NCBI RefSeq assembly: GCF_015680705.1
Contig: NZ_JADNYP010000004.1
Span: forward strand, 62,001 to 126,000
Length of the DNA stretch: 64,000 nucleotides
Source of the DNA: Pseudomonas fulva
GTDB lineage: Bacteria; Pseudomonadota; Gammaproteobacteria; Pseudomonadales; Pseudomonadaceae
Direction of reading: 5' to 3'
The notes under the pieces were generated by a model, which was not told the DNA's origin, ran no database searches, and saw only the letters and a list, made by a program, of their open reading frames with translations. Position numbers and translations under genes: made by a program. Positions 21,172-32,697 of this stretch are shown here, piece after piece (the first letter of the stretch is position 1; each line of letters opens with the position of its first letter).

Positions 21172-22797
21172 TCAGCCAGCGTGGGCGGGGGCCAGGTGAG
21201 TGGCGCTGGAGTGCGCGCTGGCCGGTTCCTGTTCTTCGTCGCCATCCAGACGAACCAGGTGCGCCGGCACACCGGTACGCGCGCCCCAATAATAGATCCC
21301 CAGCGAACAGACGATGACGATGACGTTGTCCAGCGGATGGGCAAGCACGCCCAGGCCACCGAAGCTGCCGAGCCAGGAGAGCACGATGATCATCGCGTAG
21401 AAGCCCACCAGCCAGAGCGACGAGCGCACTTGCTGCTTGAGCGACAGATGTTCGGTAGGGACGAAGCGACCGCACGCCAGGTACACCAGGAACATCAGGA
21501 TCTGCAGGCTCAGCAGCCAGGACACGGTGCTCCACCCCGACCAGTAGACGATCAGCGAAGCGATGATGAACGATACCGGGCCGAGCAGGCCCATGGCCTT
21601 GACTCGGAATGGCCGAACCAGGTCCGGCGCGCTGCGGCGCAGGGCGGCGACCGAGACCGGCGCGACCGCATAGCTGAGCACCAGCGCAGCGGATACCACG
21701 TTGATCAACGCCTCCCAGGAGGGGAACGGCAAGGTCCAGAAGATCGACATGGCGAAGGTCAGCCACAGCGCCGGACGGGGAATGCCGGACTGTTCGTCGA
21801 TGCGCGTGAATACCTTGAAGAAGGTCCCGGTGCGGGCCCAGCCGTAGATCACTCGCGGTGTGGCGTTCATGTAGATGTTGCCGCAGCCGCTTGGCGAGAC
21901 CACCGCATCGGCCACCACCAGGTAGGCCAGCCAGCCCACGCCCAGGGCGATGGCGATGTCACGGTAGGGCAGGGAGAATGCCTGGCTGATCTGCCCCCAG
22001 CCGTCGACCAGCATGTCGGTCGGCACGCTACCTAGGAACGCCAGCTGCAACAGCACATAGATGGCGGTGGAGAGCAATACCGACAGAATCAGGGCGATCG
22101 GGATGGTGCGTTGCGGGTTGCGCACCTCGCTGGCGACCGAGATGATCGGGGTCAGCCCCAGATAGGCGAAGATGATCCCGCCACCGGACACCGCCATTTC
22201 GATACCGGACATGCCGAATGGCGCAAAGCCCTGGACCTGGAGGTTCTGCGGCTGGAAGAAGCTGTACAGCACGACGATGACCAGCAGCGGCACGATGAAC
22301 TTGAAGGTACTGATCAGGTTGTTGGTCTTGGCGAAGGTCTTGACGCTGCGGTAGTTGACCACGAAGAACAGGCACAACAGGGCGAACTGCACCAGCCAGC
22401 CGGCCAGCGTCGCGTCGTTGCTGCCCGGCTGAGTCAACTGGGGAAACCAGGCCGCGGCGTACTGGCGCGAAGCCACGACTTCGATCGCCACCAAGCTGGA
22501 GAAGGCGATGATGGTGATGAACCCCATCAGGTAACCCAGCAGTGGACCATGGGAAAACACCGGGTAGCGGACCACACCGCCCGCCCGAGGCAGCGCGGCA
22601 CCCAGCTCGCAATAGACGATGCCCAGCAGCAGCACGGCGAAACCGCCGATTAGCCAGGACACGATGCCGGCAGGTCCGGCGATGGCCGAGACGTGACTGG
22701 CGGCGAATAGCCAGCCGGAGCCGAAGATCGCGCCCAAGCCGATGAACGTCAAGTCCATCAGGGAAAGTTGTTTCTTGAATTTGCCTTGGCCTGACAT
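21172..22797 (-). CDS. APC-family amino-acid permease (probable hydroxyproline uptake)
   Basis: A 541-aa inner-membrane transporter with about twelve helices. The N-terminal LSLMDLTFIGLGAIFGSGWL is the APC signature loop, and GGGIIFAYLGLTPIISVASE corresponds to the sixth-helix region. The C-terminal ~25 residues are polar. It is divergent from the PAS-AraC regulator and in a unit with the imine reductase, so it most likely imports 4-hydroxyproline or its epimer. That would replace the ABC transporter found in the P. aeruginosa lhp cluster. The transported substrate is inferred from context. Confidence 0.85.
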   Translation of the reverse strand: MSGQGKFKKQLSLMDLTFIGLGAIFGSGWLFAASHVSAIAGPAGIVSWLIGGFAVLLLGIVYCELGAALPRAGGVVRYPVFSHGPLLGYLMGFITIIAFSSLVAIEVVASRQYAAAWFPQLTQPGSNDATLAGWLVQFALLCLFFVVNYRSVKTFAKTNNLISTFKFIVPLLVIVVLYSFFQPQNLQVQGFAPFGMSGIEMAVSGGGIIFAYLGLTPIISVASEVRNPQRTIPIALILSVLLSTAIYVLLQLAFLGSVPTDMLVDGWGQISQAFSLPYRDIAIALGVGWLAYLVVADAVVSPSGCGNIYMNATPRVIYGWARTGTFFKVFTRIDEQSGIPRPALWLTFAMSIFWTLPFPSWEALINVVSAALVLSYAVAPVSVAALRRSAPDLVRPFRVKAMGLLGPVSFIIASLIVYWSGWSTVSWLLSLQILMFLVYLACGRFVPTEHLSLKQQVRSSLWLVGFYAMIIVLSWLGSFGGLGVLAHPLDNVIVIVCSLGIYYWGARTGVPAHLVRLDGDEEQEPASAHSSATHLAPAHAG

Positions 22798-23206
22798 AGC
22801 TAAGCCCTATTTTTGTGGATTATTGAAACTAGGCAGCACTGTGTTGGAGATGGTCTTTGCAGGGAAAGCAGGAGCCTCCCATGCTCGAGGACGCAGGCTC
22901 AGCGCAGCGCGGTGGGCGGTCCTCGCGGTTTTCGACAGTCCTCGACGCTCCGTGCCAACCCGCCAAGGAACACTGGCGCATTACCTCCAGGTGGTCCGCT
23001 GGCGTGTCTGGCACGCGGGGTCTTTTTCTAGGTTGAACCGATCCCGACGCCGAATGCTTGATGCTTTTCGCCAGTCTCGATGACGAATTCAGCACAATTC
23101 CCCCTGGACGCTTGACGTTTGCCCCACGCCCGGAGGCATCCTGCCATCCCTGCGCGCACCTCCCCGGACGCCGCTAAATACCTTTTCACCAAGCAGGATC
23201 CCCAGC
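22798..23206. other. 409-bp divergent intergenic region
   Basis: Holds the promoters of the permease and the PAS-AraC regulator. I see an A/T-rich stretch just upstream of the permease but no gene, and no copy of the ATTGTAT operator seen at the other catabolic genes of this cluster. Confidence 0.55.
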
Positions 23207-23980
23207 ATGGCTGCACAGAACTTGTCCCACGTGAGTGAAGGCCTCGCCACTCATCGCCCCAGGAACATGCAAGAGCTCATGGGTTGCATCTCGCTGATGC
23301 AGCCCATGCTCGACGCCATTCCCAATGCCGTGGTGTTCGTCAAGGACGCGCAGGCTCGCTACCTGATGGCCAACCGAACCCTGGTGGAGCGTTGCGGCTT
23401 GAAATCGCTCGCCCCCCTGTTGGGACGTACCAGCGCCGAAGTCTTCCCGGCGCAACTGGGGCCTGGTTACACCGAACAGGATCGCCGCGTGCTGGAGAAC
23501 GGGCTGGTGCTGCAGGACCAGCTGGAGGTGCACCTCTACGGCAGCCAGGAACCCGGCTGGTGCCTGACCCACAAACGGCCGATCCTCGACCGGCGCGGCG
23601 AGGTCATGGGGCTGATCGGCATCTCGGTGGACTTGCAGTCTGCGGCCCAAGCCCATCCGGCCTACCAGCGACTGTCGGCGGTCGACCTCTACATACGCCA
23701 GCACTACCACCTGCCGATCACGCTCGAAGACCTGACCCAGGTCGCCGGCCTCTCGGTCGCCCAACTGGAACGCTACTGCAAGCGCATCTTCCACTTGACG
23801 CCTCGCCAGATGATCCACAAGGCCAGGCTGGAACAGGCCCATCTGCTGCTGCGCACGCAGCTGCCGATCACCGAGGTGGCGCTGCGCTGCGGCTATTCCG
23901 ACCACAGCGCTTTCTCGCGCCAGTTCAAGACCATGACCGGCTTCACGCCGCGCCAGTATCGCCAGGCCACGCGGGCCTGA
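23207..23980 (+). CDS. lhpR: PAS-domain AraC-family regulator of hydroxyproline genes
   Basis: A 257-aa regulator. The N-terminal PAS-like sensor covers about residues 30-145 ([35 protein letters not shown]). A C-terminal AraC DNA-binding domain (about 160-257) carries [20 protein letters not shown] and [19 protein letters not shown]. Its position directly upstream of the epimerase and divergent from the permease fits the LhpR-type activator of 4-hydroxyproline catabolism. The effector-sensing role of the PAS domain is inferred. Confidence 0.82.
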
Positions 23981-24031
23981 AAACGCTGACAGCCGACCTG
24001 GGCGAATCGCTGACAACGCACGGAGGACTTG

Positions 24032-24061
24032 ATTGTATAAAATCTACATTGTATAAAATCT
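24032..24061. promoter_or_regulatory. Tandem 14-bp operator candidates upstream of the epimerase
   Basis: ATTGTATAAAATCT occurs exactly at 24032-24045 and again at 24048-24061, a 16-bp period. The same 14-mer occurs a third time before the D-hydroxyproline dehydrogenase (28656). The ATTGTAT half resembles FCD/GntR-family half-sites, and a GntR gene lies in the cluster. A/T-rich sites stand out in this GC-rich DNA. Confidence 0.65.
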
Positions 24062-24135
24062 TCAATCCGCCCGGACGAAGCCCTGCCGGCTCGTACCGCC
24101 AGGGCTGCCCATGCCATCGAAGGACCACGATTACA

Positions 24136-25068
24136 ATGAAAAGCATTCACGTCATCGACTCCCATACCGGCGGCGAACCCACCCGCCTGGTCATGGGTGG
24201 CTTCCCTGCCCTTGCCGGCCAGACCATGGCCCAGAAACGCGATGCCTTGCGCAGCGACCATGATCGATGGCGTCGCGCCGCCCTGCTCGAGCCACGCGGC
24301 AACGATGTGCTGGTAGGCGCCCTGTACTGCGAGCCGGTATCTCCAGACGCCACGTGCGGCGTGATCTTCTTCAACAACACCGGTTACCTGGGCATGTGCG
24401 GGCACGGCACCATCGGGCTGGTGGCCTCGCTGCATCACCTTGGGCTGATCTCGCCAGGCGAGCACAAGATCGATACCCCGGTCGGCCCGGTCAGTGCCCT
24501 TCTGCGCGAGGACGGCTCGGTAACCGTGCGCAATGTCCCGGCCTATCGCTATCGCCAGAACGTCCCGGTCGAGGTTCCCGGCTACGGTGAGGTACGTGGC
24601 GACATCGCCTGGGGCGGCAACTGGTTCTTCCTGATTTCCGAACACGACCAGCGACTGGAGCTGGACAACGTCGAGGCGCTGACCCTCTATACCTGGGCGA
24701 TCCTGCAGGCACTGGAGGCCAACGGCATCTTCGGCCAGGACGCAGGCCTGATCGACCACGTCGAACTGTTCGCCGCCGATGCACGGGCCGATAGCCGCAA
24801 CTTCGTGATGTGCCCCGGCAAGGCATACGACCGCTCGCCATGCGGCACCGGCACCAGCGCCAAGCTCGCCTGCCTGGCTGCCGACGGCAAGCTCGCCCCG
24901 GGCCAGACCTGGGTGCAGGCCAGCATCACCGGCAGCCAGTTCGAAGGCAGTTACCAAACGGAAGGCGACCGTATTCGCCCCTTCATCACCGGCCGTGCCT
25001 ATGTCACAGCCGACAGCCGCCTGCTGATCGACGAGCAGGACCCCTTCGCCTGGGGCATCTGCAAGTGA
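24136..25068 (+). CDS. hypF: 4-hydroxyproline 2-epimerase
   Basis: A 310-aa proline-racemase-fold enzyme, interconverting trans-4-hydroxy-L-proline and cis-4-hydroxy-D-proline, the first step of the pathway. Catalytic cysteines sit exactly where known epimerases have them: Cys88 in GMCGHGTIG and Cys236 in [27 protein letters not shown] opens the protein. The length equals the P. putida enzyme. It is cofactor-independent and cytoplasmic. It begins the catabolic run epimerase, deaminase, semialdehyde dehydrogenase on the plus strand, behind two copies of the 14-bp operator. Confidence 0.93.
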
Positions 25069-25124
25069 TGCCGGCCAACAAGCCTTTTCCAAGACCGACC
25101 GATAGCATGCTCAAGGAGCCTACA

Positions 25125-26072
25125 ATGACTGACAATATCTTCACCGGCTGCATTCCTGCGCTGATGACCCCCTGCACCGCAGAGCGCAAGCCTGACTTCG
25201 ACGCACTGGTGAAAAAGGGCCGCGAACTGATCGAAATCGGCATGAGCGCGGTGGTCTACTGTGGCTCGATGGGCGACTGGCCGCTGCTGACCGAGGCCGA
25301 ACGCCAGGAAGGCGTGGCGCGCCTGGTGGCTGCCGGTATCCCGACCATCGTCGGCACTGGCGCGGTCAACTCCAGGGAAGCCGTGTCGCATGCCGCCCAC
25401 GCCGCCAAGGTTGGCGCCCATGGCCTGATGGTCATTCCACGGGTGCTGTCGCGTGGCAACTCGATCCCTGCCCAGAAAGCCCACTTCAAGGCGATCCTGC
25501 AAGCCGCCGCGAACCTGCCGGCCGTGATCTACAACAGCCCTCACTACGGTTTCGCCACCCGTGCCGACCTGTTCTTCGAACTGCGCCAGGAGCACCCGAA
25601 CCTGATCGGCTTCAAGGAATTCGGCGGCGCCGCGGCGATGAGCTATGCCGCCGAATTCATCACCTCCAAGGACGACCAGGTGACCCTGATGGCAGGTGTC
25701 GACACCCAGGTCTATCACGGCTTCGTCAAATGCAACGCCACTGGCGCCATCACCGGCATCGGCAATGCCCTGCCACGCGAGGTGCTGCTGCTGATCAGGC
25801 TGTGCCGGCAGGCCGCCGCAGGCGACGCCAAGGCCCGCCGTCTGGCCAAGGAGCTGGAAGAGGCCTTGGCGATCCTGTCCTCGTTCGACGAAGGCGTGGA
25901 CCTGGTGCTGTACTACAAGCACCTGATGGTCCTCAACGGCGACACCGAATACACCCTGCACTTCAATGAAACCGACGCCTTGAGCGAGTCCCAGCGACGC
26001 TACGCGGAAGATCAGTACGACCAGTTCCGCAAGTGGTACGCCAGCTGGTCGAGCGAGAACAACCTGGTCTGA
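25125..26072 (+). CDS. lhpC: DHDPS-family deaminase, delta1-pyrroline-4-hydroxy-2-carboxylate deaminase
   Basis: A 315-aa TIM-barrel lyase of the dihydrodipicolinate-synthase/NAL family. Schiff-base Lys164 is in IGFKEFGG; Tyr136 is in VIYNSPHYG; GSMGDWPLLT is the substrate loop. In hydroxyproline pathways this family converts delta1-pyrroline-4-hydroxy-2-carboxylate to 2-oxoglutarate semialdehyde plus ammonia. Position between the epimerase and the semialdehyde dehydrogenase strongly supports that reaction. ATG at 25125 follows AAGGAG; an earlier in-frame start would add six residues. It lies 56 bp after the epimerase, probably in the same operon. Confidence 0.9.
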   Translation: MTDNIFTGCIPALMTPCTAERKPDFDALVKKGRELIEIGMSAVVYCGSMGDWPLLTEAERQEGVARLVAAGIPTIVGTGAVNSREAVSHAAHAAKVGAHGLMVIPRVLSRGNSIPAQKAHFKAILQAAANLPAVIYNSPHYGFATRADLFFELRQEHPNLIGFKEFGGAAAMSYAAEFITSKDDQVTLMAGVDTQVYHGFVKCNATGAITGIGNALPREVLLLIRLCRQAAAGDAKARRLAKELEEALAILSSFDEGVDLVLYYKHLMVLNGDTEYTLHFNETDALSESQRRYAEDQYDQFRKWYASWSSENNLV

Positions 26073-26183
26073 TAGACCGGCCTTGCCTCTGCGCGACGGC
26101 ATGCCGCCAGCGTGCCGTCGCCCCTCAAGGCCCAGACCGCCACGGCGGACCGGGCCCATGCTTTCTCGACTCCAGGAGAGCCC

Positions 26184-27761
26184 ATGAATCTTTCAGGTCA
26201 CATGCTGATCGGCCAACGTGCCGTCATCGGCACCCAGTCCCCCATCCGTGCCATCGACCCTGCCACCAACGAGCCACTCGAACCGGCCTACCCTGGCGGC
26301 AACCGCGAGCACGTCGAACGCGCCTGCGGCCTGGCCTGGGCGGCATTCGACCCGTATCGCGAAACTTCGCTGCCAACCCGCGCTGCCTTTCTAGAACGTA
26401 TCGCCAACAACGTCGAAGCGCTGGGCGATACCCTGATCGACCGCGCCGCGCGAGAAACCGGGCTGCCTCGCGCGCGCCTGCAGGGCGAACTGGGCCGGAC
26501 CTGCCAGCAGCTGCGTAGCTTCGCCCGCACCGTGCGCGCTGGCGAATGGCTGGACGTGCGGGTCGACGAGGCGTTGCCCGAACGCCAGCCGCTGCCCCGT
26601 CCCGACCTGCGTCAACGGCATGTGGCCCTTGGCCCCGTGGCCGTCTTCGGCGCCAGCAACTTTCCCCTGGCGTTCTCGGTCGCTGGTGGCGACACCGCTT
26701 CGGCGCTGGCAGCCGGTTGCCCGGTCATCGTCAAGGCGCACAGCGCCCATCCCGGCACCAGCGAACTGGTAGGCCGGGCCGTCCAGCAGGCGGTGCAGGC
26801 GTGCGGCCTGCCGGAAGGGGTGTTCTCGCTGCTGTACGGCTCGGGTAACGAGATCGGCATCGGCCTGGTCAGTGATCCGCGCATCAAGGCGGTCGGCTTC
26901 ACCGGTTCACGCACCGGTGGCATTGCACTGACCAAGGCCGCCCAGGCACGCCCCGAACCCATCCCGGTCTACGCCGAGATGAGCTCGATCAACCCGGTGC
27001 TACTGTTCGAATCGGCGCTGTGCAGCCGTGGCGCCGCGCTGGCCGAAGGCTTCGTCGCCTCGCTCAACCAGGGCGCCGGCCAGTTCTGCACCAGCCCTGG
27101 GCTGGTCATCGCGATAAAGGGCCAGGCACTGGACACTTTCCAGCAGACTGCCAGCGCAGCCATCGCTGGCAGCGCCGCCCAGACCATGCTCACGCCCGGC
27201 ATCCACGCGGCCTACGACAAGGGTGTGCAAGCCTTGCGCGGCAACGCCAAGGCGCGCCTGCTGGCCAAGGGCATCGAGGGTGAAGGGTACAACCAGTGCC
27301 AGGCCCACCTGTTCGTCACCGCGGCCAGCGACTTCATGAGCGACCCGGCCATGCAGGAGGAAGTCTTCGGCTCGGCATCGCTGATCATCGAATGCGACGA
27401 CCTGGCCCAGCTCCGCCAGGTCACCGAGTCCCTCGAAGGCCAGCTGACCGCCACCGTGCAGATGGACGACGCCGACGCGGACGCGGTCGCCACGCTGCTG
27501 GCGACCCTGGAGCGCAAGGCCGGTCGCATCCTGGTCAATGGCTGGCCGACCGGGGTGGAAGTGTGCGACGCCATGGTGCATGGGGGCCCGTTCCCAGCGA
27601 CCTCCGACTCGCGCACCACCTCGGTGGGCACGGCGGCGATCCTGCGCTTCCTGCGTCCGGTGTGCTACCAGAACTTCCCCGACAGCCTGCTGCCAACGCC
27701 GATCAAGCGGGACAACCCGCTGGCACTCAGGCGCCTGCTCAACGGTCAGCGGGAACACTGA
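26184..27761 (+). CDS. lhpG: 2,5-dioxovalerate (alpha-ketoglutarate semialdehyde) dehydrogenase
   Basis: A 525-aa aldehyde dehydrogenase giving 2-oxoglutarate with NAD(P)+, the last step of hydroxyproline catabolism. The catalytic Cys is at 302 in [10 protein letters not shown] and the general-base Glu near 265 in VYAEMSS. The nucleotide loop is GFTGSRTGG, with [20 protein letters not shown] near 155-175. The unusual length and the DTASALAAG / GWPTGVEV motifs are typical of the ketoglutarate-semialdehyde group rather than ordinary ALDHs. ATG at 26184 follows CAGGAGAG. Third gene of the run. Confidence 0.9.
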
Positions 27762-27837
27762 CACAACGCTGTGGCGCGGCGGTCGACGCTGCGTCACGGC
27801 TTCATACCGGGCCCACCTCGGTGGCTGCCTCAGCGCC

Positions 27838-27858
27838 ATTTGCATACAATATGCAAAT
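27838..27858. promoter_or_regulatory. Perfect palindrome, candidate autoregulatory GntR operator
   Basis: ATTTGCATA and TATGCAAAT form a perfect 9-bp inverted repeat around CAA, 25 bp upstream of the GntR start. It contains ATACAAT, the reverse complement of the ATTGTAT core shared with the 14-bp sites at 24032, 24048 and 28656. An ATG inside it is not the likely gene start. Confidence 0.65.
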
Positions 27859-27883
27859 TCCAACCGGGGCCTCGAACAGTATC

Positions 27884-28552
27884 ATGGCAAGCTTCAAGAC
27901 ACGTGCGCAGCATGTCGCAGACGACCTGCGCAAACGCATCCTCAGCGGCGAATTCAAGGGCGCCACCCAGCTGCGCCAGGATGCCCTGGCACGCGACTAC
28001 GATGTGAGCAGGATTCCGGTACGCGAGGCGCTGCTGACGCTCGAAGCCGAGGGGCTGGTCGAATTCCATCCGCATCGGGGTGCCTTCACCACCGAGCTGT
28101 CCACCACCACCATCCGCGAGCTTTTCGACCTGCGCGTGCTGCTCGAATGCCGGGCCCTGGGCGAAGCGATCCCGAAGCTGACGCCCGATGAGCTGGACCG
28201 GGCCGAACGCCTGCTCGACCAGTACGACGCCGCGCTGGATTCAGGCCGCGACATCGACAACTGGAGCGACCTGAACTTCGCCTTCCATACCGCCTTGTAC
28301 GGGCCAGCCCAGTTGCCGGAAACCCTGGCGATGATCGGCCAGCTCAACACCAAGTGCGACCGCTACATCCGCATGCAGCTTCTTTATACCCAGGAAATCC
28401 AGAAAGCCGAGAAGGAACACCGCGAATTGCTCGACCTGGCACGGACCAAGGACATCGACACGGCCTGTGCCCTGCTCGCCCGGCACATCCGCGATGCCTG
28501 CGACGGTATCGTCACCGTCCTGGAAAACAGCTTGAACAGCTTGAACAGCTGA
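27884..28552 (+). CDS. GntR/FCD-family regulator of the hydroxyproline cluster
   Basis: A 222-aa FadR-type regulator. A winged helix lies at about residues 8-75 (ALARDYDVSRIPVREALLTL; LVEFHPHRGAFTTELS). A helical FCD ligand domain follows (about 85-210) with FDLRVLLECRALG, DLNFAFHTALYG and the metal/ligand His of EHRELLDLA. It ends in a short SLNSLNS repeat. It lies between the dehydrogenase and oxidase genes of the pathway, preceded by a perfect palindrome sharing half-sites with operators at both catabolic transcripts. That suggests a local repressor relieved by a pathway metabolite. Confidence 0.88.
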   Translation: MASFKTRAQHVADDLRKRILSGEFKGATQLRQDALARDYDVSRIPVREALLTLEAEGLVEFHPHRGAFTTELSTTTIRELFDLRVLLECRALGEAIPKLTPDELDRAERLLDQYDAALDSGRDIDNWSDLNFAFHTALYGPAQLPETLAMIGQLNTKCDRYIRMQLLYTQEIQKAEKEHRELLDLARTKDIDTACALLARHIRDACDGIVTVLENSLNSLNS

Positions 28553-28655
28553 CGCGCAGCGCCCTGGCCTGCGCGCAGGCCAGAGCTGCATGCAAGAAAC
28601 GACGCTGAGCACGGGCCTGGCGGCACGAGACCGAGGCCATGGACCGAACAGAACA

Positions 28656-28669
28656 ATTGTATAAAATCT
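28656..28669. promoter_or_regulatory. 14-bp operator candidate upstream of D-hydroxyproline dehydrogenase
   Basis: Exact third copy of ATTGTATAAAATCT, ending 21 bp before the dehydrogenase ATG, where a bound repressor would overlap the promoter or initiation region. Confidence 0.65.
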
Positions 28670-28690
28670 ACGATTAATGAGGTTGAGCGG

Positions 28691-29971
28691 ATGCCTTCAC
28701 ACGAACTTCATCGTTCCAGCGGTCATGCCTGCGACATCGCCGTCGTGGGAGCCGGCATCGTCGGGGTCGCCTGTGCCCTGGCGCTTTCCCGGCAAGGGCA
28801 CCAGGTGCTGGTACTGGACCGGGACGAACCGGGTCATGGCGCGTCGTTCGGCAATGCTGGCCACCTGGCCACCGAACAAGTCTTCCCGATTGCCGACAGC
28901 GCCATTCTCAAGCGCTTGCCCAGCATGCTCCTGGACCCGATGGGCCCGTTGCGCCTGGACTGGCGCTACCTGCCGCGGGCGCTGCCGTGGTTCACCCGGC
29001 TGCTGCTGAACCTGCGCCAGCGCCCCTATCAGCACAGCGTCGCCGCGCTGCGCGCCTTGAACGAAGCAAGCCTGCAAGCGTGGCGGCGTCTGCTGGCGTC
29101 GATCGACCAGCAGCGGCTGCTCAAGGAGGACGGCTCCCTGCTGGTGTTCGAGCGGCCCGAGTCCCAGGCCGCGATCGACCTGCTCAGGCAAAAGATGCAA
29201 GCCCAGGGCGTCGCCGTGGACACCTGGACGGCGCAGGCCATCCAGCGCAGCGCGCCCGAGCTGTCCGAATCGATCCAGGGCGGGCTGTTCTTTCCCGCCA
29301 CCGGGCATTTCATCGACCCCTACCTGGTGCTGGACAGCCTGGTACAGGCCGCCCGGCAAACCGGCGTGCGTTTCGTTCGCCAGCGTGTCGAGGGTGGGCA
29401 CCTGCGCGATGGCGTCGTGCTCGATACCGACCGCGGCCCGGTCGTGGCTGGCAAGGTGTTGATCGCCTGCGGCGCCCATTCGGCCGGTCTGACCCGACAG
29501 TTGACCGGCCGGGCGGTGCCGCTCGACACCGAGCGCGGTTACCACCTGATGCTGCCCCATGAGCATGATCGGCTGCCAATGGCGGTCACCTCCCTGGAGC
29601 GGCGCTTCATCATGACCCCCATGCGCGATGGCTTGAGGTTGGCAGGCACCGTCGAGTTCGCCGGCCTGGAGCGGGCCCCGGACATGCAGCGCGCCTGGCA
29701 GCTGCATCGCCTGACCCAGGGCCTGTTCAAGCGCGCCCTGAACACCGAGGCCGCGACCACCTGGATGGGCTTCAGGCCTTCGCTGCCCGACTCGTTGCCG
29801 GTGATCGACCAGGTTTGCGAGGGCCGTGTGTTGCTGGCGTTCGGCCATCAGCATCTGGGGTTGACCCAGGCTGCGGTGACCGCCGAGATGGTGGCTTCCC
29901 TGACAGGCCCGGCGCCGGCCGGCAGGCCACCCATGCCTGCCCTGGCGCCCTACCGTCTGGATCGGTTCTAG
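28691..29971 (+). CDS. FAD-dependent cis-4-hydroxy-D-proline dehydrogenase (DadA-like)
   Basis: A 426-aa DAO-fold flavoprotein. The FAD-binding GAGIVG loop lies near residues 20-26, GASFGNAGHLAT follows the acidic strand as in DadA-type enzymes, and TERGYHLMLP, MTPMRDGLRLAGTVEFAG and FGHQHLGLTQAAVTAEM form the C-terminal FAD/substrate part. Within this cluster it should oxidise cis-4-hydroxy-D-proline to delta1-pyrroline-4-hydroxy-2-carboxylate, feeding the deaminase. In P. putida the equivalent single-polypeptide enzyme sits next to the same genes. It is separately transcribed behind its own copy of the operator. Confidence 0.88.
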   Translation: MPSHELHRSSGHACDIAVVGAGIVGVACALALSRQGHQVLVLDRDEPGHGASFGNAGHLATEQVFPIADSAILKRLPSMLLDPMGPLRLDWRYLPRALPWFTRLLLNLRQRPYQHSVAALRALNEASLQAWRRLLASIDQQRLLKEDGSLLVFERPESQAAIDLLRQKMQAQGVAVDTWTAQAIQRSAPELSESIQGGLFFPATGHFIDPYLVLDSLVQAARQTGVRFVRQRVEGGHLRDGVVLDTDRGPVVAGKVLIACGAHSAGLTRQLTGRAVPLDTERGYHLMLPHEHDRLPMAVTSLERRFIMTPMRDGLRLAGTVEFAGLERAPDMQRAWQLHRLTQGLFKRALNTEAATTWMGFRPSLPDSLPVIDQVCEGRVLLAFGHQHLGLTQAAVTAEMVASLTGPAPAGRPPMPALAPYRLDRF

Positions 29972-31489: not shown

Positions 31490-31598
31490 CGTATCGTGCT
31501 CCGATTGCTGGATGAGGTAACCAACCAAGTGCCTGCGTGACTGTCGTGCTGCCGCTCGAGAGCCAGTCAAGACGCCTGCCTGCTTCTTATATAGTATT

Positions 31599-31608
31599 TC
31601 GTATACGA
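31599..31608. promoter_or_regulatory. Palindromic GntR-type operator candidate before the MHS transporter
   Basis: TCGTATACGA is a perfect 10-bp palindrome in an A/T-rich patch about 110 bp upstream of the transporter ATG. A near-identical sequence (TCTTATACGA) precedes the adjacent GntR gene. Confidence 0.5.
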
Positions 31609-31774
31609 TTTTGCATGAAGCAAGATGGAGGCCAGGTTCTCGATCTGCTGATCGATGCCTGTAGATCACGGCATTGGACACGAACGGGCACCTGGTCGAG
31701 TGACGCTTCGGTGCCAAGCTGTTACCTGAGGAAGCACCGCTGCCACATAACGGAGCACAGGTCAGAAGGCCTGC

Positions 31775-32440
31775 TCAGGCGCGAGGCAGGTGCTCGTACA
31801 GGCTCTGGCAGACGCCGTTGATGTGATCCTCGATCAGCTTCGCCGCCGCCTCGACATCCCTGGCGCGACAGGCCGCGACGATCTGCCGATGCTCATGATC
31901 GGCGCGATCCTTGCCTGCCGACAGACTCATCTGCATACGCAGGTAACGCTCGACCTTGTCATGGATCGACCGGATCAGCCCGACCAGGAACGGCCGCTGG
32001 GCCGGCTCGTACAGGCACGCGTGCAAGGCCCAGTTCAGCTCGGCCCAGCGACCAATGTCATCCTCACCGACGAATTCGGCACAAATGCCTTCGGCATGGC
32101 TGAAGGTCTGCTCCGTCATGTTCGGCACCGCCAGGCGAATGGCCTTGACCTCCAGCAACACTCGAACCTCGAAGAACTGCGCGAGGTCCGGCTCCGACAT
32201 CTTCGTCACCAGCGCCCCGCGGTTGCGGTGGAAAGCGACCAGCCCTTCGGCCTCCAGGCGTTTCAAGGCTTCGCGAACCGGGATCTTGCTGACGTTGAAG
32301 GCCTGGGCGATATCGTCCTGGCGCACCGGCTCGCCTTCGGCGAGATGCCCCGAAATGATCGCATCGCGCAGGTGCCTTGCAATGATCTCGGAGGTAGAAG
32401 GCGCGACCCCGAGGTTGGGCGCTTGGCTAGGGAATGGCAC
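31775..32440 (-). CDS. GntR/FCD-family transcriptional regulator
   Basis: A 221-aa FadR-type regulator. The winged helix is near residues 16-80 (DDIAQAFNVSKIPVREALKR; FHRNRGALVTKMS) and the FCD domain near 85-210 (FFEVRVLLEVKAI; ELNWALHACLYEPAQ; DHEHRQIVAAC). It resembles the other GntR of the window in layout but is not a recent duplicate. It is divergent from the D-serine ammonia-lyase gene and upstream of the MHS transporter, with similar palindromes before itself and the transporter, so it probably controls one or both. Confidence 0.87.
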   Translation of the reverse strand: MPFPSQAPNLGVAPSTSEIIARHLRDAIISGHLAEGEPVRQDDIAQAFNVSKIPVREALKRLEAEGLVAFHRNRGALVTKMSEPDLAQFFEVRVLLEVKAIRLAVPNMTEQTFSHAEGICAEFVGEDDIGRWAELNWALHACLYEPAQRPFLVGLIRSIHDKVERYLRMQMSLSAGKDRADHEHRQIVAACRARDVEAAAKLIEDHINGVCQSLYEHLPRA

Positions 32441-32471
32441 GGCTGGATCCGATGAAAGGCAGGTGCGGATA

Positions 32472-32481
32472 TCTTATACGA
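32472..32481. promoter_or_regulatory. Operator candidate between divergent gntR and dsdA
   Basis: TCTTATACGA differs by one base from the perfect palindrome TCGTATACGA at 31599. It lies 31 bp upstream of the GntR start, a usual position for autoregulation. Confidence 0.45.
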
Positions 32482-32697
32482 TAGGTGGCACGCCTCCAAA
32501 AGGCTGGACGATGCATGACATCCGTTCATCCATGGCCTGATGAATCATCAGTTGTCCGCCCCAGCCCGCTCGAATCTAATCGCAGCGAGCGGCCAGCCAG
32601 CAGGGGTCACGGTCGCTGGCGAGCACATGATGGCCAGGTAGCGCGCCGCGAGGCTCGTCTTGCGCAAAGACGCTCAGATAGCTACGGAGATGAATCG

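Follow-up and report, generated by a model that had tools for sequence, protein, structure and literature searches.

Probable division of hydroxyproline control between a HypR-type GntR repressor and an LhpR-type AraC regulator in Pseudomonas fulva

Regulators of hydroxyproline use have been described in several bacteria, and the comparisons made here follow the available parts of the reports cited. In Pseudomonas aeruginosa the AraC activator LhpR (PA1261) has been reported (PMC6608401, PMC8694187), and an iModulon paper on the same species names an L-hydroxyproline 'HypR' set (PMC9023270). The HypR regulon includes collagenases, proline peptidases and a peptide permease, with ornithine cyclodeaminase in some species, and autoregulation of HypR was described in 32 of 46 genomes (PMC5343134). 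In Streptomyces coelicolor, HypR is an autoregulated GntR-type repressor of hydroxyproline use (PMC6608401), and operators of the GntR family can be flanked, on either side or on both, by an extra half-site of lower strength lying 7-12 nt from their centre (PMC4494728). Here a hydroxyproline cluster of Pseudomonas fulva is described, lying in a stretch of 64,000 nucleotides (assembly GCF_015680705.1, contig NZ_JADNYP010000004.1, positions 62,001 to 126,000), called the window below, in which one A/T-rich element occurs at four sites, O1-O4. Judging from comparisons among related clusters, it is likely that O1-O4 are operators of the local GntR protein, GntR1, a HypR-type FCD repressor, that an LhpR-type AraC regulator acts at a separate box, and that control is split between the two. 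An operator of this kind is already known from HypR, and the proposed split with LhpR would be new; the open-access literature (most subscription papers lay outside the search) yielded no account of joint control by LhpR and HypR, nor of an operator of the HypR type in P. guariconensis.

The 14-mer ATTGTATAAAATCT has three exact copies in the window, all on the forward strand, at 24032-24045, 24048-24061 and 28656-28669, as an earlier note on this DNA had claimed. The first two belong to one promoter, upstream of the 4-hydroxyproline epimerase gene (24136..25068, forward strand; NCBIfam NF010577 above cut-off), and the third lies upstream of the gene of a DAO-family FAD oxidoreductase (28691..29971, forward strand; family match). 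When up to three mismatches were allowed, seven matches were found in the window (G+C 65.1%), whereas 100 dinucleotide shuffles gave a mean of 0.39 and never more than 2; among the seven, two come from reading the copies at 24032 and 24048 on the opposite strand. The 12-bp core ATTGTATAMAAT has three copies in the draft genome (4,505,983 bases, 59 contigs), all of them in this cluster. Both results agree with the note's judgement that the repeats are unlikely to have arisen by chance. The perfect inverted repeat that it had placed before gntR was likewise recovered (ATTTGCATACAATATGCAAAT, 21 bp, exact at 27838-27858, 25 bp upstream of the gntR start at 27884), and is a matching site: each 14-mer is extended on its 3' side by a second arm, MTRCAA, and forms the left portion of an 18-bp operator, A-TTGYAT-AMAAT-MTRCAA, and the gntR palindrome, the same 17/18-bp element, is its fourth copy.

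The operators, all on the forward strand, are O1 (TTGTAT-AAAAT-CTACAT, 24033..24049) in the epimerase promoter, O2 (TTGTAT-AAAAT-CTTCAA, 24049..24065), a tandem copy at a 16-bp shift, O3 (TTGTAT-AAAAT-CTACGA, 28657..28673) before the oxidoreductase gene, and O4 (TTGCAT-ACAAT-ATGCAA, 27840..27856) within the inverted repeat, where autoregulation is predicted. O1, O2 and O3 correspond to the first, second and third 14-mer and are based on sequence, matrix and alignment, O4 on sequence and matrix. A degenerate operator pattern, itself partly shaped by O1-O4, matched these four in the own genome at zero to one mismatch and nothing else below two mismatches; at up to three mismatches each strand gave 55 matches, and the reversed control 28-29. 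Between the epimerase gene and gntR1 lie the genes of a DHDPS-family protein (25125..26072) and an aldehyde dehydrogenase (26184..27761), both on the forward strand and identified by family match. From the pathway, we take the former to be pyrroline-4-hydroxy-2-carboxylate deaminase, the latter alpha-ketoglutarate semialdehyde dehydrogenase and the oxidoreductase D-hydroxyproline dehydrogenase.

A matrix built from 18 sites, all outside Pseudomonas, gave its four highest window scores to O3 (28.7 bits), O1 (28.6), O2 (28.0) and O4 (26.5); the next independent score was 11.3 bits, and overlapping or opposite-strand readings of O1-O4 reached 19.9 and 12.7 bits. In the 400 bp upstream of the epimerase gene, the operator was present in 10/10 clusters with GntR1 (27.7-32.9 bits) and in 0/28 without it (best score at most 3.6 bits). 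Upstream of the oxidoreductase gene the corresponding counts were 11/12 and 0/10, three of the 11 operators (L071, L072, L079) being common to a divergent epimerase gene. These counts refer to proteins at least 55% identical to the window protein; matches covering less than three quarters of the query were excluded, as were six distant epimerase rows (30-37%; L083, L093-L095, L097, L099), all with a GntR1-type gene. Six of the 10 epimerase loci had given training sites; the four that had not are the window, L072 and the two loci of P. guariconensis. The 28 clusters without GntR1 (27 from Pseudomonas and one from Acinetobacter) are a sample, 25 from among 221 genomes with an epimerase match and three from the search for GntR1 homologues. 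The earlier note had made its reading depend on conservation of the 14-mer before orthologous genes; the operator was found before the epimerase gene in all 10 clusters where GntR1 accompanies it and in none of the 28 where it does not. Presence of the operator with GntR1 and its absence without GntR1 support binding by this protein.

The same distribution bears on the adjacent PAS-AraC activator (LhpR), whose sites the 14-mers could also be, as the araC gene stands directly upstream of the double site and AraC proteins often use direct repeats. However, all 28 GntR1-less clusters, which have no site before the epimerase gene, have an AraC match, whereas Halomonadaceae clusters carry the operator with no araC gene detected, and the 12 Halomonadaceae-type loci have neither an AraC match nor an LhpR box; the operators track GntR1, whether AraC is present or not, and it is another element, a box of 42 bp, that goes with araC. 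With co-occurrence failing in both directions, binding of the 14-mer by the AraC protein was rejected as extremely improbable. The local GntR very probably binds the sites instead, which is in line with the assignment in the note.

The core was found in 82/298 Pseudomonas genomes. Leaving aside G193 and the own genome, the examined loci (L004-L022, L024-L032) have no cluster gene within 1.5 kb, and 28 epimerase loci (L145-L172) contain no site within one mismatch of the core. Among 11 genomes picked for the asymmetric form by unequal strand counts, a procedure by which some could be missed, only G193 has it in a hydroxyproline cluster; in G122, G179, G180, G211 and G073 the listed cluster genes are on contigs other than that of the site, and in G069, G187, G208, G222 and G224 no epimerase match was found.

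The form of the operator was examined in an alignment of 21 sites (14 before enzyme genes and seven before gntR genes themselves). Information content was 0.70-1.90 bits in each of 18 columns, and all the others but one stayed at 0.39 bits or lower. The exception, aligned column 38, lies 21 bp downstream of the operator (1.03 bits; 15 C and 6 A of 21) and could perhaps be caused by chance or relatedness. Conservation of the right arm MTRCAA (0.70-1.62 bits per position) almost equals that of the core, and many of the closer GntR1 clusters have ATTGTATAAAAT or its reverse complement upstream of an epimerase, oxidoreductase or deaminase gene. In three Salinicola-type loci (L066, L068, L076) the oxidoreductase gene is preceded by a reversed core (ATTTTATACAAT) with CTACAA still on its 3' side, and in L067, L069 and L070 both flanks of the core can be read as arms; the arm therefore appears to be a separate half-site. 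Close relatives of GntR1 in Halomonadaceae have counterparts of O4 before their own gntR, and in the Halomonas loci L070-L072, which have a rearranged gene order, the operator also precedes the deaminase gene. The doubled operator at a 16-bp shift was seen only in this lineage (window 24032-24061, L063 3185-3212, L064 3154-3181); the compared Halomonadaceae loci have one exact core before the epimerase gene.

These features also bear on whether the 14-mers could be mere strong A/T-rich -10 elements, conserved for RNA polymerase. The 14-mers contain TATAAA(AT), and a possible -35 hexamer TTGATT (24029..24034), overlapped by O1, and a possible -10 hexamer TATAAA (24052..24057) within O2, 17 bp after the -35, were recognised by eye on the forward strand; the stricter promoter scan of the window missed the -35, and the pair TTGATT-17-TATAAA is not among its listed promoters. 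A pure promoter element is disfavoured by conservation over 18 bp including the right arm, by the reversed Salinicola-type cores that keep their CTACAA arm on the 3' side, and by the tie of the sites to GntR1. Moreover, the core occurs nowhere else in the draft genome and the element upstream of gntR lacks TATAAA. This explanation is consequently regarded as highly unlikely.

Within the operator, a compact 12-bp palindrome can be drawn, in which enzyme-gene sites form four of five pairs in 13/14 cases (L071 forms three); pair 3:8 is broken in 14/14 enzyme-gene sites but kept in 5/7 gntR-own sites. It may be speculated that the enzyme operators are weaker and the autoregulatory operator tighter. 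A perfect ATTGTATACAAT occurs in several Alteromonadales-type loci of GntR1 homologues. Perfect copies are also present in many Pseudomonas genomes (G007, G015, G057 and others) outside the hydroxyproline cluster, where they are perhaps sites of other GntR proteins. The pair counts alone fit both the compact palindrome and a 17-bp inverted repeat. A compact core with an additional half-site, as in the available account of GntR-family operators (PMC4494728), is preferred because the paralogue GntR2 accompanies the compact ATCGTATACGAT. As in that account, MTRCAA is centred within the described range, 9 nt from the compact centre; the difference is that the added arm here is conserved nearly at core level and is not weaker.

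GntR1 (27884..28552, forward strand, 222 aa) has a GntR winged helix-turn-helix (wHTH) and an FCD domain, with PF00392 and PF07729 above their cut-offs. Residues N131, H135 and H179 are kept in 41/41 GntR1-type rows and H201 in 40/41, and gntR1 is clustered with the genes of the hydroxyproline epimerase (NF010577) and partner enzymes. Among the best 80 of 158 matches, its relatives were found in P. guariconensis (90% identity), in Halomonadaceae and one unclassified neighbour (69-75%), and farther away in Oceanisphaera/Zobellella (60-63%) and Alteromonadales-type or unclassified gammaproteobacteria (44-50%). Identity of 90% or more to GntR1 was reached in two of 298 Pseudomonas genomes, the own one and G193, and the other rows among the matches listed, best first, were at most 43%; in a search of 38 relatives, 1e-80 was passed by the own genome only. 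The neighbours of Alteromonadales-type homologues (nine proteins at three loci, L080, L086 and L095, compared by gene content alone) are an M9 collagenase, a prolyl-oligopeptidase-family protein, an M24 peptidase, ornithine cyclodeaminase, a POT permease, proline racemase and a DHDPS-family protein. As this content matches that described for the HypR regulon (PMC5343134), and extra half-sites like those seen here are described in PMC4494728, GntR1 was filed as HypR-type. It is proposed to be a HypR-type GntR/FadR regulator, with S. meliloti HypR compared by its published description only; the rhizobial loci found were labelled as the GntR2 type.

Several properties are common to this locus and the HypR regulon of Proteobacteria as far as the available text goes: a GntR-FCD regulator beside hydroxyproline enzyme genes, and a site before its own gene indicating predicted autoregulation, here O4 (PMC5343134). 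A compact A/T-rich palindrome can be recognised in both, and in that of HypR two nucleotides separate GT from AC (PMC4494728); of the palindromic TKGT/ACMA form with GT-N2-AC spacing, pair 3:8 is kept here in 5/7 own-gene sites and 0/14 enzyme-gene sites. In contrast to HypR, the enzyme-gene operators here have this palindrome disrupted in one of its halves and add an arm, and the permease lies outside the predicted regulon, behind an LhpR-type box. S. coelicolor HypR is likewise of GntR type, represses hydroxyproline use and is autoregulated, as is predicted here, but its reported motif, CTNTGC(A/C)ATGTCAC, is unlike O1-O4 (PMC6608401).

The window holds a second GntR regulator, GntR2 (31775..32440, reverse strand), a paralogue with 38% identity to GntR1 and a similar recognition helix, so that O1-O4 might be bound by GntR2, alone or together with GntR1. 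The GntR2 type accompanies TCGTATACGA, and its loci carry the TCGTATAC-type 8-mer in 35/38 cases and the TTGTATA type in 1/38, whereas GntR1-type loci carry the TTGTATA type in 28/40 and the TCGTATAC type in 10/40 (loose patterns, counted anywhere in the locus without shuffle control). No GntR2 was labelled in the operator-bearing Halomonadaceae loci within the 7-kb flanks examined. Sites of the GntR2 type do reach 19.9 bits with the GntR1 matrix in Acinetobacter, and some crosstalk is possible; binding of O1-O4 by GntR2 nevertheless seems very unlikely. Position 43 is Arg in 41/41 GntR1-type and Lys in 39/39 GntR2-type rows, a hint at a specificity residue that may reflect one ancient change. 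In residues 41-50 and the wing, VSRI/M of GntR1 corresponds to VSKI of GntR2 and a wing H to N, and at a single symmetric position the T of one operator is replaced by C in the other (TTGTAT and TCGTAT). Candidate GntR2 sites are TTCGTATACGAT (31598-31609), before an MFS transporter gene, and ATCTTATACGAT (32471-32482), between gntR2 and a D-serine ammonia-lyase gene; elsewhere, ATCGTATACGAT is often near epimerase or proline-racemase homologues in GntR2-type loci.

The AraC-type regulator (23207..23980, forward strand, 257 aa) has PAS_4 and AraC-type HTH domains and stands beside the hydroxyproline genes. Aligning the window, P. guariconensis and 11 class-1 Pseudomonas clusters (L203-L213) revealed a conserved block upstream of its gene, a 42-bp box, TTGATGnTTT-N12-ATGACGAAwTCrGCACA. 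A matrix built from the 11 class-1 boxes scored all of these training boxes at 45-62 bits; outside training, it found one box at 53 bits in each of the two P. guariconensis loci, boxes of 33-55 bits in 14 further Pseudomonas clusters (L214-L225, L227, L228), with a second at 31.9 bits in L214, and boxes in 8/8 named Pseudomonas loci (30-44 bits) and 2/3 Acinetobacter loci. In the window a single box was found (23058..23099, forward strand, 53.1 bits; second-best -7.0 bits). An LhpR-type box was seen in every AraC-bearing Pseudomonas hydroxyproline cluster scored; none was found in L226, L229 or 12 Halomonadaceae-type loci (best 0.4 bits). Its tie to the araC gene suggests that the box is the LhpR binding site. 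Likened by description to the P. aeruginosa LhpR system in the available reports (PMC6608401, PMC8694187), the locus has a PAS-AraC regulator with a permease and an epimerase, and a conserved 42-bp box presumed to be its site.

The position of the box differs, however. In class 1 it precedes permease-epimerase genes (eight clusters) or the epimerase gene itself (three), and in 22 other Pseudomonas clusters it lies directly upstream of the epimerase gene, so that it stands before enzyme genes in 33. In the window lineage the permease gene (AA_permease_2; 21172..22797, reverse strand) points away from the enzyme genes, divergent from araC, with the box between the two and no O-type site upstream of the permease; in the window no box precedes any enzyme gene. 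The earlier note had envisaged two-layer control over one pathway. Two regulators are indeed indicated, but not both over the whole pathway: since the AraC box is absent before the enzyme genes, the two seem to divide it. The note's suggestion of separate control of uptake and breakdown fits this arrangement, as the permease, lacking an O-type site, has the LhpR box, and the two processes are probably under different regulators, an activator for uptake and a repressor for breakdown. Many Pseudomonas clusters (L101-L104, L106, L108, L109, L121, L215-L225, L227, L228) have AraC and its box together with a gene of the GntR2 type that adjoins the epimerase gene or lies no more than about 12 kb from it, and pairing of AraC with a GntR regulator may be common, with a different GntR.

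Several points weigh against split control through GntR1 operators. One GntR1 cluster, L065, has no operator before the oxidoreductase gene, and L073, L075, L077 and L078, with a close GntR1, show no strong operator in the examined stretch, where the enzyme genes fall outside it; in L073 and L075 gntR itself is preceded by a weak one. The operator matrix reached a maximum of 14.1 bits in 27 other Pseudomonas loci (15-19 kb). The gntR-own training sites were picked with the motif in mind, and the strand of three Halomonadaceae training sites (L067, L069, L070), in itself arbitrary, was chosen in the same way. Furthermore, LhpR could still reach the enzyme genes by read-through, because araC points to the epimerase gene on the same strand across a 155-bp gap in which no terminator-like site was listed. 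GntR1 would then bind its sites under layered control, with LhpR also driving the enzymes, by this route or from an unrecognised site. With no LhpR box before the enzyme genes and a second-best window score of -7.0 against 53.1 bits, such layering appears unlikely.

What the sequences show directly is that there are four sites of conserved form, that these co-occur with GntR1, and where the AraC box lies; from this we infer binding and repression by GntR1, its release by a hydroxyproline compound, binding of the box by the AraC protein and the split in control. Without hydroxyproline, GntR1 would occupy O1/O2 across the likely promoter of the epimerase, deaminase and dehydrogenase genes, O3 at the oxidoreductase promoter and O4 at its own. 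Repression would most likely occur by promoter cover, as O1 and O2 overlap the possible TTGATT-17-TATAAA pair. A hydroxyproline-derived ligand in the FCD domain would release GntR1 and turn breakdown on, and the PAS-AraC regulator would govern the permease and itself from the 42-bp box. In this genome and P. guariconensis, the enzyme genes would thus stand behind GntR1 operators, instead of the box that precedes them in related Pseudomonas.

Transfer from Halomonadaceae was examined with quick gene trees. The epimerase of the window grouped with other Pseudomonas (support 90, not starred), and forcing it with Halomonadaceae gave p 0.011. For the deaminase, nearest to Acinetobacter, placement with class-1 Pseudomonas gave p 0.0004 and with Halomonadaceae p 0.113; neither placement was favoured for the oxidoreductase (p 0.40 and 0.34) or the aldehyde dehydrogenase (p 0.18 and 0.15). 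The cluster is likely a mosaic, and the distribution of gntR1 alone suggests its gain from outside the genus; the operator of the gained GntR1 would then stand before a Pseudomonas-type epimerase gene. Tentatively, and with somewhat less than even confidence, a hand-over in the P. guariconensis lineage can be pictured, in which the breakdown operon left LhpR for a HypR repressor whose gene and operators occur elsewhere chiefly in Halomonadaceae, the permease staying with LhpR and the 16-bp operator duplication also setting the 17-bp spacing of the -35 and -10 hexamers.

If true, this would be a hybrid switch, in which uptake is controlled by activation and breakdown by derepression, with two separate sensors. 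A defined operator is now at hand, together with a paralogous pair, GntR1 with TTGTAT and GntR2 with TCGTAT, between which few recognition residues differ. From lineage to lineage, the regulator of a given pathway is often exchanged for another; here both seem to have been kept, sharing the pathway, and as the sites of both are readable and unique in the genome, the locus may be taken as a natural experiment on an operon changing hands.

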